The position numbers were made by a program, and so were the translations under genes. From Candidatus Limivivens intestinipullorum (GTDB lineage: Bacteria; Bacillota; Clostridia; Lachnospirales; Lachnospiraceae), in NCBI GenBank assembly GCA_018711185.1, contig DVIQ01000027.1, positions 1 to 64,000 on the forward strand: a stretch of DNA of 64,000 bases, written 5' to 3'. The notes below the pieces were generated by a model, which did no database searches, was not told the origin of the DNA, and saw only the letters and a list, made by a program, of their open reading frames with translations. This document shows, piece after piece, positions 8,378 to 45,277 of the stretch (the first letter of the stretch is position 1; each line of letters begins with the position of its first letter).

Positions 8378-8509
8378 GTAACCGTTCAGCCCTTCTGAAC
8401 CGTTACATGCAAAATCCATTTAAAATCGCCTGCGGCGATGGGATTTTGCACTCCTGAATCACGTTCTTACGGTCCGCGCAGCATGTGCGCAGACCTGGGC
8501 TGAACTGTT
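8378..8509 (-). mobile_element. MITE-like element, full-length copy 2
   Basis: About 132 bp, closely matching the copy at 5378. It is flanked by direct repeats of GACGGCGG (8371-8378 and 8510-8517), and the left one follows the fucosidase stop codon immediately. The outer AC of one end is lost. It lies within the glycosidase operon. Confidence 0.8.
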
Positions 8510-39623: not shown

Positions 39624-39693
39624 CATGGAAGCACAGCGGCAGAGGATCGCGTTATAACACGGAGAAGAACTGGCGGGCGGCGCTCGCCGGAGC

Positions 39694-39738
39694 GGGGCAG
39701 AAAACGGAGCAATTGACGTTTTCTGCCCCGTTTGTGTT
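39694..39738 (+). terminator. Terminator after the Mrp-type gene
   Basis: GGGGCAGAAAAC pairs perfectly with GTTTTCTGCCCC across 12 nt, followed by GTTTGTGTTTT. Confidence 0.75.
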
Positions 39739-39765: not shown

Positions 39766-39816
39766 TTTACAAAATCGAACATATGTACTATAATAACGGA
39801 AAAGAACAGATGTTCG
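39766..39816 (+). promoter_or_regulatory. LexA-type SOS promoter of the radical SAM repair genes
   Basis: The promoter is TTTACA (39766-39771), 17-nt spacer, TATAAT (39789-39794). CGAACATATGTACT (39776-39789) lies in the spacer and overlaps the -10, and AGAACAGATGTTCG (39803-39816) lies just downstream. Both follow the Gram-positive LexA box CGAAC-N4-GTTCG; the second is nearly perfect. Repression by LexA is inferred. Confidence 0.75.
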
Positions 39817-39876
39817 ATTTAGCAATACTGTTACGATCGACGCCGTTAACCGAAAAGCGGCGGAATGGAGATTGTT

Positions 39877-41196
39877 ATGAGGATTGAAAAGGAAATGACT
39901 CTTATGGAAAAGCTTACGATCCTGACGGATGCGGCAAAGTACGATGTGGCATGTACATCCAGCGGCACGCAGAGGGGGAATGACGGTGCCGGTATCGGGA
40001 ACTGTATATCTGCCGGGATCTGTCACAGCTTTTCCGCAGACGGCAGATGTATCTCACTTCTGAAAATACTCTTTACAAATGAATGCGTGTTTGATTGCCG
40101 CTACTGTATTAACCGCTGTTCCAATGACGTACCGCGGGCCTCTTTTACGCCGGAGGAGGTCTGCCGTCTGACCATAGAATTTTACCGGAGAAATTATATT
40201 GAGGGCCTCTTTCTGAGCTCCGGAGTCCTTCACTCCCCTTCCTATACCATGGAACTTCTTTACCAGACCTTATATTTGCTGAGGACAAAGTACCATTTTC
40301 AGGGATATATCCATGTTAAAGCTATTCCGGGCGCTTCGGGAGAGCTCATCGAAAAGACCGGTTTCCTGGCGGACCGCATGAGCGTGAATCTTGAACTGCC
40401 CACAGCCGCGGGGCTGAAGCTTTTAGCGCCCCACAAAAGCAGAAAGACCATACTCGGGCCCATGCGTCTGATCCAAAGCCGCCGCGAGGAAAACTGCCGC
40501 GAGCTTACGGTGTATAAAAAGGCACCGGCTTTTGTGCCCGCGGGACAGAGTACCCAGATGATTATCGGAGCCACGCCGGAGAGCGATTACCAGATTGTAA
40601 AGACCGCGGAGGCCCTTTACCGGAACTTTGCTCTGAAGCGAGTATTTTACTCGGCCTTTGTACGGGTAAATGACGACAGCAGCCTGCCGGTTCTGCCCGG
40701 TGGCCCGCCGTTGCTCCGGGAGCACCGTCTGTATCAGGCGGACTGGCTTCTGCGGTATTATGAATTTCAGGCGGATGAGATCCTCTCAGAAAAGAGACCG
40801 TTTTTTAACGCGTTTCTTGATCCCAAGTGTAATTGGGCCGTGCAGAACCTGGATTGTTTCCCTGTGGAGATTAACCGCAGCGATTATCACACGCTTCTGC
40901 GGGTACCAGGTATCGGTGTACGGTCGGCCAGGCGGATTATCCGGGCCAGACGCTACGGGGAGCTGCGCTTTGAGGATTTGAAAAAGATGGGAGTTGTATT
41001 GAAGCGTGCCCAGTATTTTATTACCTGCAAAGGCAGGATGCTGTATCCGGTGAAGCTTGAGGAGGAGGAGGTCACCAGAAACCTTTTAAATGTCCGGGAA
41101 AAACTTCCCTTTGAGGCTCAGACATGCCGCCAGATGAACCTGTTTACGGATTTTGGATTAAAGAGGGAGGAGCTGTATGCGGATTTTTCTCTGTGA
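39877..41196 (+). CDS. Radical SAM DNA modification/repair protein (UDG-linked type)
   Basis: A 439-residue radical SAM enzyme. The cluster motif is CVFDCRYC (near residue 70). The C terminus has a helix-hairpin-helix DNA-binding region, LLRVPGIGVRSARRIIRARR (near 345). It resembles the putative DNA modification/repair radical SAM family linked to uracil-DNA-glycosylase-like proteins (TIGR03916), and the partner gene follows with a 20-bp overlap. Two LexA-type boxes at the promoter support a damage response. The chemistry is unknown. ATG 39877 is chosen because GGAG precedes it by 6 nt; the ATG at 39865 contains that site. Confidence 0.88.
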   Translation: MRIEKEMTLMEKLTILTDAAKYDVACTSSGTQRGNDGAGIGNCISAGICHSFSADGRCISLLKILFTNECVFDCRYCINRCSNDVPRASFTPEEVCRLTIEFYRRNYIEGLFLSSGVLHSPSYTMELLYQTLYLLRTKYHFQGYIHVKAIPGASGELIEKTGFLADRMSVNLELPTAAGLKLLAPHKSRKTILGPMRLIQSRREENCRELTVYKKAPAFVPAGQSTQMIIGATPESDYQIVKTAEALYRNFALKRVFYSAFVRVNDDSSLPVLPGGPPLLREHRLYQADWLLRYYEFQADEILSEKRPFFNAFLDPKCNWAVQNLDCFPVEINRSDYHTLLRVPGIGVRSARRIIRARRYGELRFEDLKKMGVVLKRAQYFITCKGRMLYPVKLEEEEVTRNLLNVREKLPFEAQTCRQMNLFTDFGLKREELYADFSL

Positions 41197-41941
41197 CGGG
41201 ATACCGGAAGGAATCCTGACCGGCGTCTATGACGCCTGGGCCAGCCGCCTGGGGCACAGCCAGGTCAGGCTGCAGTCCGGGGAGCCAGGAGATATGGAGC
41301 TTTTCGCGGAGTATACCAGGACGCGTCCGGATCGGGAAAAGGCGGAAAAGGTGGCCCGCACTATAAAAAGGGAGCTTGGGGCGTACGCCTGGCAGTGTAT
41401 TTTCCAGGCGGCCCTCTCAGAAGCCCCGGAACGGGCCGATAGTATCTATCGAACGGTGGTGGAAGGACTTTTGGCTTCAAACAAAAGAGAACAGATCATG
41501 GACCGGCTTCAGAACAAGGATATTCGCCGAGTTTTTGAGCTTTCCAGAAGAGTGGGAAATGAAGCACATCATTACCTGGGATTTCTGCGCTTTTCCGAGC
41601 TGGGGGGAGGGATTCTTTTTTCGAAAATCCATCCAAAGGCAAGGATTTTGTCCCTGATCGGCGATCACTTTTCCCAGCGTTTTCCGATGGAGCATTTCCT
41701 TATTTGCGATGCGGCGCATGAGGAGACCCTTCTTCACAGGGCCGGGCATCCCTGGATTCTTACTCAGGGACAGGCTTTGAATCCGGAGCGGACGGCACAG
41801 TTTTCAGAGACAGAGCAGGAGTTTCGCTGTCTGTGGCAGGGCTTCGTGGACACCATTGGCATAGAAGAACGAGCCAATTCCGGCCTTCAGCGTCAGCTTC
41901 TTCCCCTTCGCTATCGCCCGGATCTGGTGGAGAAACTGTAA
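41177..41941 (+). CDS. TIGR03915-type DNA metabolism protein (radical SAM partner)
   Basis: A 254-residue protein starting MRIFLCDGIPEGILTGVYDAW and ending PLRYRPDLVEKL. It resembles the probable DNA metabolism family (TIGR03915/DUF4130) always found beside the UDG-linked radical SAM gene. It overlaps that gene by 20 bp with GAGGAG just before its ATG, so the two should form one functional unit. The catalytic residues are not known. The TAA stop overlaps the 8-bp direct repeat of the following mobile element, which did not alter the protein. Confidence 0.85.
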   Translation: MRIFLCDGIPEGILTGVYDAWASRLGHSQVRLQSGEPGDMELFAEYTRTRPDREKAEKVARTIKRELGAYAWQCIFQAALSEAPERADSIYRTVVEGLLASNKREQIMDRLQNKDIRRVFELSRRVGNEAHHYLGFLRFSELGGGILFSKIHPKARILSLIGDHFSQRFPMEHFLICDAAHEETLLHRAGHPWILTQGQALNPERTAQFSETEQEFRCLWQGFVDTIGIEERANSGLQRQLLPLRYRPDLVEKL

Positions 41942-41946
41942 ATTTT

Positions 41947-42080
41947 GTAACAGTTCAGCCCAGGTCTGCGCACAAGCTGCGCGGACCGTAAGAACGTGAT
42001 TCAGGAGTACAAAATCCCATCGCCGCAGGCGATTTTAAATGGATTTTGCATGTAACGGTTCAGCAGGGCTGAACCGTTAC
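41947..42080 (+). mobile_element. MITE-like element, full-length copy 3 (reference copy)
   Basis: 134 bp from GTAACAGTTCAGCCC to GGGCTGAACCGTTAC with exact 8-bp flanks TAAATTTT (41939-41946 and 42081-42088). Inside are a GTC.GCGCA/TGCGC.GAC hairpin, conserved CGTAAGAACGTGATTCAGGA and an AAATCCCATCGCC/GGCGATTT..GGATTT hairpin. There is no coding frame. The remainder of 42089-42438 holds the HPr-like gene promoter and leader; nothing else recognised. Confidence 0.88.
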
Positions 42081-42271
42081 TAAATTTTCGTTGATTCATG
42101 CCATAAAAATGCAGCGTTTTGCAGAAGAAACGAAAAAACAAATGCAGTCCGGAAGATTTCCCCAAAATGGTTGCGGATAAATCGCACAGTTTTCGTGTAT
42201 AGGGTCTGAAAAAATTGTATATAATTTCTTGAGGCTGCCGCGTCTTTACAGAAGGCTTGGGAAAAAATTGA

Positions 42272-42880: not shown

Positions 42881-45277
42881 GTGGAAGAAATTCGAATATC
42901 CGTGCGCAGTCTTGTGGAATTTATTCTGCGCAGCGGCGATATAGACAACCGGCATGGGATGCCGGCCGATAAGGAGGCGATGCAGCTGGGCAGCCGTCTT
43001 CACAGAGAAATCCAGGGGCAGATGGGAAAGGCCTACCAGGCCGAGGTACCGCTGAAAACGCTGTGGCACTGCGAGGACTACGCCATTTCAGTGGAAGGAC
43101 GCGCGGACGGGATTTTTCCTATGACAGTCGGGAACGCGCCGGATCTTCCGGAGGAGATTTTCCAGGCTGTGGCGGAGGCGGACGGGCTGATGTTTGTGGA
43201 TGAGATAAAAGGAAGCTACCGGAGTCCGGCGCGCATGGAGGAGCCGGTTCCAGTACATCTGGCGCAAGCAAAATGCTACGCCTACATCTACGGTGTCAGT
43301 CATGGCCTGAAAAACATGGGAGTGCAGATGACCTACTGTAATCTGGAGACAAAGGAAACCCGGAGGTTTCATCAGATATTTTCCGTGGATGAGCTGACAG
43401 CCTGGTTTTCCGCTGTTATGGAAGAATACCAGAAGTGGTGCGATTTCCAGCAGAGCTGGAAAAAGGTGAGGCAGGCATCGATTCCGGAGGTGCCGTTTCC
43501 ATTTCCCTATAGGGAGGGACAGAAGGACATGGCGGCGGCGGTTTACCGTACCATTGCCAGAAAGAAAAAGATTTTTATTCAGGCCTCCACGGGTGTGGGG
43601 AAAACCATATCCACTGTTTTTCCGGCAGTCAAGGCGGTGGGGCAGGGAATCGGAGACAAAATTTTTTATCTTACGGCAAAGACCATTACAAGGACGGTGG
43701 CCCAGGATGCCTTTGCGCTCCTGAAGGAAAAAGGCCTGAAATATAAGGTGATTACTTTGACAGCCAAAGAGAAAATCTGTCCGCTGGAGGAGACGGACTG
43801 CAATCCGCTCCACTGTCCAAGGGCGAGAGGCCATTTTGACCGGATTAACGACGCCGTTTTTGAGATGCTGAATGAGGAATGCGATTTTACCAGGGAAGCG
43901 GTGGAGGCTTACGCCGAGAAGCGGAATGTCTGTCCCTTTGAGATGAGCCTTGATCTGGCTGCGTGGATGGACGCTGTGATCTGTGACTATAACTACGTGT
44001 TTGACCCAAGAGCCAGACTCAAGCGGTTCTTCGGAGAGGGCGTCCGGGGAGACTATCTGTTTCTCATCGACGAGGCCCACAACCTGGTGGAGCGCGGCAG
44101 AGAAATGTTCAGCGCTTCTTTATATAAAGAAGATTTTCTTGAATTGAAAAGGGAAGTGCAGCCCTATAACCGGAAGCTGTCGCGCCAGCTCGAGACGTGC
44201 AATCGGATGATGCTGGAGTGGAAGCGGGAGAGCGATTCCTGGCGGCTGCTGGACAGCACAGGGGCCTTTCCAGCGGCGCTTATGAATCTGACGGGCATGC
44301 TGGAGGATTTCATGGAAGAACTGACGGACCGGGATCTGGGAAAGAAGGTTCTGGACTTTTACTATCAGGTCAGCAAGTTTCTGGATATTTATGAGCGGGT
44401 AGATGAAAATTATCGGATTTATACGGATTTTTCGGAGGACAGCCGCTTCTTTATCCGCCTTTACTGCATCAACACCGCCGTGAATCTGCAGGAGTGCCTG
44501 GACAAGGGCAGCAGCACCGTTTTCTTTTCCGCCACACTGCTTCCTGTGCGGTACTATATGGGGTTGCTCTGCAAGGACACGGACTGCTACGCCATTTACG
44601 CGGAGTCTTCCTTCCGACCGGAAAACCGCCTGGTTCTCATGGGTCTGGATGTGAGCAGCCGCTACAGCCGCCGAGGCCCCAGGGAATACGCGAAGATCGC
44701 GGCTTATATACAGGCGATGGTTTCCGGTCGAGAGGGAAACTATATGGTTTTCTGTCCTTCCTATCGCATGCTCCAGGAGATCTCCCAGGCATACATGGAA
44801 ATATGCGAACCCCGGACGGAAATCATCTGTCAGAAACCCGGTATGTCAGAGACGGACAGAGAAGAATTTCTGGCGAAATTTTCCCGGGAGACGCCGCATA
44901 CGCTGGTGGGCTTTGGCGTCATGGGAGGCGTGTTTGGAGAGGGAATCGATTTGACGGGAGAACGGCTGATCGGGGCGGCGATTGTGGGTGCCGGACTGCC
45001 TCAGGTGTGCAGCGAGCGGGAAATTCTCAAGGATTTTTACAATGCCGCGGGAGCGGATGGATTTTCTTACGCGTACATTTATCCGGGTATGAATAAGGTT
45101 TTGCAGTCGGCGGGCCGGGTAATCCGCACGGCGGCTGATCGGGGCGTGATCCTTCTTTTGGACGAACGGTTCGGGCAGACTGCGTACAGATCGCTGTTTC
45201 CAAGGGAGTGGGCCGAAAGCAGTCCCTGCAGTCTGAAGAATGTCGGGGAGAAGATTAAGCGGTTCTGGCGCTCCTGA
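42881..45277 (+). CDS. Rad3/DinG-type ATP-dependent DNA helicase with N-terminal nuclease-like domain
   Basis: A 798-residue superfamily 2 helicase. Residues 1-200 look like a Cas4/RecB-type PD-(D/E)XK domain (GRADGI, FVDEIKGSYR as the Asp/Glu-x-Lys region, QAKCYAYIY). The helicase core has Walker A ASTGVGKT (near 237), DEAH box LIDEAHNLVE (near 398) and final motif QSAGRVIRT. Four Cys between about 300 and 350 (ICPLEETDC, HCP, NVCPFEM) match the XPD/DinG iron-sulfur cluster site. It probably unwinds damaged or structured DNA. Start is the GTG at 42881, with a weak GGGG site. Confidence 0.87.
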   Translation: MEEIRISVRSLVEFILRSGDIDNRHGMPADKEAMQLGSRLHREIQGQMGKAYQAEVPLKTLWHCEDYAISVEGRADGIFPMTVGNAPDLPEEIFQAVAEADGLMFVDEIKGSYRSPARMEEPVPVHLAQAKCYAYIYGVSHGLKNMGVQMTYCNLETKETRRFHQIFSVDELTAWFSAVMEEYQKWCDFQQSWKKVRQASIPEVPFPFPYREGQKDMAAAVYRTIARKKKIFIQASTGVGKTISTVFPAVKAVGQGIGDKIFYLTAKTITRTVAQDAFALLKEKGLKYKVITLTAKEKICPLEETDCNPLHCPRARGHFDRINDAVFEMLNEECDFTREAVEAYAEKRNVCPFEMSLDLAAWMDAVICDYNYVFDPRARLKRFFGEGVRGDYLFLIDEAHNLVERGREMFSASLYKEDFLELKREVQPYNRKLSRQLETCNRMMLEWKRESDSWRLLDSTGAFPAALMNLTGMLEDFMEELTDRDLGKKVLDFYYQVSKFLDIYERVDENYRIYTDFSEDSRFFIRLYCINTAVNLQECLDKGSSTVFFSATLLPVRYYMGLLCKDTDCYAIYAESSFRPENRLVLMGLDVSSRYSRRGPREYAKIAAYIQAMVSGREGNYMVFCPSYRMLQEISQAYMEICEPRTEIICQKPGMSETDREEFLAKFSRETPHTLVGFGVMGGVFGEGIDLTGERLIGAAIVGAGLPQVCSEREILKDFYNAAGADGFSYAYIYPGMNKVLQSAGRVIRTAADRGVILLLDERFGQTAYRSLFPREWAESSPCSLKNVGEKIKRFWRS

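Follow-up and report, generated by a model that had tools for sequence, protein, structure and literature searches.

The gene pair CAC3343-CAC3344 of Clostridium acetobutylicum consists of the same radical SAM (rSAM) gene and partner as the locus described here, and its control by LexA was predicted in 2013 from conserved upstream sites and co-expression, so that there, too, the regulation is a prediction (PMC3828012). Another described system is the COG1573-COG4277 operon, which a second source reports or cites as SOS-controlled in Bacteroidetes, Verrucomicrobia, and Caulobacter, and describes as a uracil-DNA glycosylase (UDG) base-excision system with other LexA motifs (PMC8565304). SplB-type genes are likewise SOS-regulated in several bacteria (PMC8565304); spore photoproduct lyase (SplB) is also a radical SAM enzyme and acts on DNA. 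DUF4130 has been described as a predicted enzyme related to mutagenesis that is associated with UDGs and with radical SAM proteins resembling SplB (PMC3765255). Our literature search found no paper joining UdgX with radical SAM and none giving the substrate or reaction of the family.

The window, i.e., the whole stretch of 64,000 nucleotides of Candidatus Limivivens intestinipullorum DNA that was analyzed, carries an rSAM gene followed by a DUF4130 gene that overlaps the rSAM stop by 20 nt (Table 1). The rSAM reading frame is open from 39865, with a likelier start at the ATG at 39877, behind GGAG. We take this gene to be of the COG4277 type, that is, of the HhH/rSAM family, and on that assumption the COG1573-COG4277 operon shares with it both the family and SOS regulation, whereas the operon in the window has no UDG domain. 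The DUF4130-UdgX (TIGR03915-TIGR03914) operons of Alpha- and Betaproteobacteria show the same order as here, an SOS operator upstream of an rSAM gene that the DUF4130 gene directly follows, but differ in that the partner is fused to UdgX and the operators are GAAC-N7-GAAC or CTGT-N8-ACAG. When compared with the accessible part of the CAC3343-CAC3344 account, the pair of operators at the promoter, the wide occurrence in Bacillota, and the linkage to a helicase are new here (PMC3828012).

Table 1. Features of the rSAM-DUF4130 locus, in window coordinates.
Feature	Position	Strand	Details
Hairpin upstream of the operon	39693-39730	+	14-bp perfect stem, then TTTGTGTTTT (T-rich); probable terminator of the upstream mrp/ApbC gene
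Sigma-70-type promoter TTTACA-17-TATAAT	39766-39794	+	TTTACA 39766-39771; TATAAT 39789-39794
Predicted LexA operator 1, CGAACATATGTACT	39776-39789		In the -35/-10 spacer; last base common with the -10
Predicted LexA operator 2, AGAACAGATGTTCG	39803-39816		Starts nine bases past the -10
rSAM gene	39865-41196	+	TIGR03916, 689 bits vs 343.5
CX3CX2C radical-SAM cluster motif	40084-40107	+	C74, C78, C81 (numbered from 39865)
Helix-hairpin-helix (HHH_3) near the C-terminus	40864-40977	+	Pfam 21.9 bits, cut-off 27
DUF4130 gene	41177-41941	+	TIGR03915 217.6 bits (curated cut-off 112.25); PF13566 150 bits; no UDG domain
Hairpin past the DUF4130 gene	42052-42080	+	Perfect 13-bp hairpin, then TAAATTTT; possible terminator of the two-gene operon, within the dispersed repeat 41945-42085

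The promoter hexamers match the consensus at 11 of 12 positions, with a spacer of 17 bp. Operator 2 is a perfect GAAC-N4-GTTC, and operator 1 departs from it once (GTAC); in relatives, GTAC or GTGC is likewise seen at right half-sites that extend into the -10. A (C)GAAC-N4-GTTC(G) operator thus lies over the promoter, as is expected of a member of the Bacillota-type LexA regulon. Transcription would start at about 39801, with operator 2 just downstream of that point. A preliminary description of this DNA had quoted the TTTACA-17-TATAAT promoter and both LexA-type boxes, and all of the quoted letters are found in place. It had also stated that the two boxes overlap, which is wrong, as 13 bp separate them, and that they follow the promoter, which holds for operator 2 but not for operator 1, situated between the -35 and the -10. 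Elsewhere in the genome, a second two-box promoter was observed (G000:C95:10392-10438, corresponding to 893-939 of locus L228), located before an ORF of 31 codons that adjoins an XRE-type regulator; its LexA-type boxes are CGAACGAATGTTCG, touching TATAAT, and CAAACATACGTTCG, 33 nt further on.

The search for the same boxes upstream of homologues, proposed in the preliminary description, was run with a score of at least 18 as the threshold for calling a box, and its outcome left the claim standing. Upstream DNA was sufficient for 79 Lachnospiraceae homologues, of which 74 carried a box and none the reversed motif (0/79), against background rates of 1.5% in shuffled upstream regions and 0.8% in other windows of the same loci. 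A further set, which includes the window itself and may share species with the Lachnospiraceae set, comprised 59 homologues drawn from 24 Bacillota families; 52 had a box and none the reversed motif (0/59), and the boxes were kept in 22 of the 24 families sampled. No box was found upstream of 7 of 138 homologues. At least two boxes were present in 103 of 139 loci, with spacings falling into classes of 23-35 and 45-63 nt, the former commonly placing box 1 between the -35 and the -10 and box 2 behind the -10, like the window. Merely 115 of 9591 pairs of upstream regions were alignable over 60 nt (86 clusters from 139 regions); because these regions are mostly unalignable with each other, the conservation of the boxes is not mere shared ancestry, and the boxes persist where the flanking sequence does not. 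Of the 139 loci, 135 had the DUF4130 gene next to the rSAM gene. In two loci of family f79 (L184 and L194), neither a DUF4130 neighbor nor a LexA box was found.

Regarding other phyla, the non-Bacillota comparison was made on named plasmid records. In Alphaproteobacteria, GAAC-N7-GAAC or GTTC-N7-GTTC, the alphaproteobacterial LexA operator (PMC8565304), preceded the rSAM gene in 12 of 12 loci and occurred in 0 of 2116 background windows. In Caballeronia (Betaproteobacteria), the rSAM-DUF4130 operon was preceded by CTGTATAAATATACAG, an E. coli-type SOS box (CTGT-N8-ACAG). The Bacteroides, Spirosoma, Fusobacterium, and Acinetobacter phage loci had none of the tested motifs, a set that did not include the Bacteroidetes LexA motifs. 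Since three different LexA operators precede the same operon in Bacillota, Alphaproteobacteria, and Betaproteobacteria, its predicted SOS control appears to have persisted while the specificity of LexA changed. The rSAM gene was also seen in two phage-labeled records, an Acinetobacter phage MD-2021a record (L209), in which the DUF4130 partner is present too, and the fecal phage scaffold MT835514 (L210), which has the same double-box promoter.

When considering the rSAM protein, we found that C30, C53, and C62 are as invariant as the cysteines of the CX3CX2C motif from Bacillota to Proteobacteria and Bacteroidota, which suggests an additional Fe-S or metal site; H54 is conserved in the Bacillota set, and C388 is conserved only in part. 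The helix-hairpin-helix (HhH) that the preliminary description placed at the C-terminal end is real: it falls below the Pfam cut-off, but its core residues R346, P348, G349, and G351 are invariant across phyla, and a match was obtained to a ComEA-related HhH (2duy, E 0.0037). The structure model of the rSAM protein is poor to moderate (pLDDT 72) and matches generic radical-SAM barrels only, with RimO, HydE, and viperin among its best matches. With this model of moderate quality, no lyase family or structure match that would indicate likeness to SplB was found beyond the generic CX3CX2C core. No solved structure was found for either the rSAM or the DUF4130 protein.

The DUF4130 model is good (pLDDT 89.5); its best PDB matches, DHH-family phosphatases and RecJ, were considered as fold relatives and rejected, with TM-scores of about 0.3 being too low. 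DUF4130 is a standalone protein in Bacillota and Bacteroidota, and in the Proteobacteria read it is fused to TIGR03914, now called UdgX; these fusions carry GEQPG in 11 of 11 cases and a KRRIH-like loop in 8 of 11. Profile matches placed no UDG or UdgX domain in the operon of the window, fused to the partner or otherwise, and TIGR03914 was found neither in the genome of the window nor in its genus (G000, G001, and G002). The pair had been introduced as "UDG-linked", a label that is not supported here, because the operon contains no UDG and TIGR03914/UdgX is missing from the genome and genus; the name comes from lineages other than this one and does not fit the operon in the window. Two other UDG-superfamily genes are located elsewhere in the genome.

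Because of the probable terminator of the mrp/ApbC gene upstream, the rSAM gene opens its own transcription unit. Past the DUF4130 gene, a dispersed repeat of approximately 135 bp was observed at 41945-42085 (+) and again at 8378-8509 (-), containing a 13-bp perfect hairpin (GTAACGGTTCAGC/GCTGAACCGTTAC). The genome holds at least 40 copies, mostly 93-98% identical, a number that may be higher, as 40 of about 440 candidates were scored; two genus mates carry diverged pieces, as does one other genus, and no Rfam family was found for the repeat. Further downstream, a gene encoding a Rad3/DinG-like helicase is situated at 42881-45277. In 50 of 80 Lachnospiraceae loci, the helicase gene comes after the operon, on the same strand, sometimes within 100 nt of DUF4130 and often with an HPr-like gene between them. 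The helicase was rejected as a member of the SOS operon here, as it lies beyond the hairpin and has its own promoter-like site; it is a possible functional partner of the operon.

Boxes of this type also occur in the genome of the window itself, a short distance ahead of the recA frame and likewise upstream of dinB, and in relatives they are found upstream of lexA in all 14 cases with a readable upstream region. A canonical lexA was not found in the window's assembly (94.7% complete, 118 contigs), in which the sole lexA-family match is an XRE-S24 repressor. Both genus mates searched have lexA; in view of this and of the state of the assembly, the simplest reading of the missing gene is an assembly gap. 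The XRE-S24 protein at C24 was rejected as the organism's LexA, since its DNA-binding domain is of the XRE type rather than the LexA type and the genus mates carry a true LexA.

These observations bear on whether the boxes are LexA operators at all. The bare GAAC-N4-GTTC pattern occurs in the 64-kb window and in the genome about as often as in shuffles or as its reversed counterpart, that is, at chance level; it was dropped as stand-alone evidence, and the case was built on conservation and on the arrangement of the paired boxes centred on a promoter. The frequency of single matches would fit a reading of the boxes as chance GAAC/GTTC palindromes in an AT-rich promoter, without any regulation, but operators 1 and 2 score highest of all sites in the window against the full 14-bp consensus, and they lie 27 bp apart on one promoter, an arrangement of two such sites within 65 nt that arose in 0 of 60 shuffles, and boxes are found at about 94% of homologues against about 1% of background. 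We consider coincidence barely conceivable and, as far as sequence allows, already refuted. The boxes might instead serve a repressor other than the chromosomal LexA that recognizes a LexA-like site, and a prophage XRE-S24 repressor like the one at C24 would be an example; a LexA-like XRE-S24 protein is, after all, the only lexA-family match in the assembly, and another double-box promoter of the genome adjoins an XRE regulator. This is very improbable, given that recA and dinB of this genome and lexA of relatives have the same box upstream, that the genus mates have a true LexA, and that conservation extends to 22 of the 24 Bacillota families sampled. The SOS-type (LexA) control put forward in the preliminary description is borne out by the conservation among homologues, the recA and dinB boxes, the lexA boxes of relatives, and the clade-specific operators in Proteobacteria, and regulation of the rSAM-DUF4130 operon by LexA as part of the SOS response is, on this sequence evidence, near certain.

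A different objection accepts the operators as truly those of LexA and places the target of the enzyme elsewhere, in RNA, the nucleotide pool, or a protein modified during SOS. In its favor, tRNA, ribosomal proteins, and peptides are common targets of radical SAM enzymes, the best structural matches of the rSAM model include RimO, HydE, and viperin, an enzyme with CTP as its substrate, RNA can be bound by HhH motifs, and the papers found show no substrate for the family. Against this stand the proteobacterial fusions, in which the partner is joined to the uracil-DNA binder UdgX, the conserved ComEA-type HhH, and the SOS regulation kept in several phyla under different operators, and we regard a target other than DNA as unlikely. 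The HhH, the fusion to UdgX, and the SOS regulation make DNA the most likely substrate. We hold it highly probable that the segment 39766-39816 acts as the regulated promoter for two genes that form an SOS operon and encode a radical SAM enzyme and a DUF4130 partner that act on DNA, and an ordinary LexA-repressed operon for a radical-SAM DNA-repair enzyme and its partner is the most likely interpretation.

In the SOS response, RecA-stimulated cleavage of LexA lifts repression. In undamaged cells, LexA dimers on both operators, one inside the promoter and the other over the transcription start, would exclude RNA polymerase from the rSAM-DUF4130 operon. Upon DNA damage, RecA filaments would trigger the self-cleavage of LexA, and both genes would be made. 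The rSAM enzyme, most likely held on DNA by its C-terminal helix-hairpin-helix, would use a deoxyadenosyl radical on a damaged or abnormal nucleotide, and the DUF4130 partner, translated from its overlapping start, would work with it. In Proteobacteria, the extra UdgX domain of the partner may capture uracil or abasic DNA.

SOS control was already predicted for relatives, and the window adds another case of this known regulation; because such control was predicted before, the question shifts to what the enzymes do to DNA. Since three structurally different LexA operators front the same operon, the purpose of the enzyme can be read from its regulation, as lineages with a changed LexA specificity appear to have kept the operon in the SOS response. 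As a tentative proposal, to which we give somewhat less than even weight, the rSAM-DUF4130 system may be widespread and SOS-induced and use radical chemistry to repair or convert a lesion in DNA; next to spore photoproduct lyase, it would then be a second radical-SAM activity for DNA repair. In this proposal, the invariant C30, C53-H54, and C62 would probably form an additional metal or Fe-S site, and the system would be coupled to UdgX in Proteobacteria and work without it in Bacillota.
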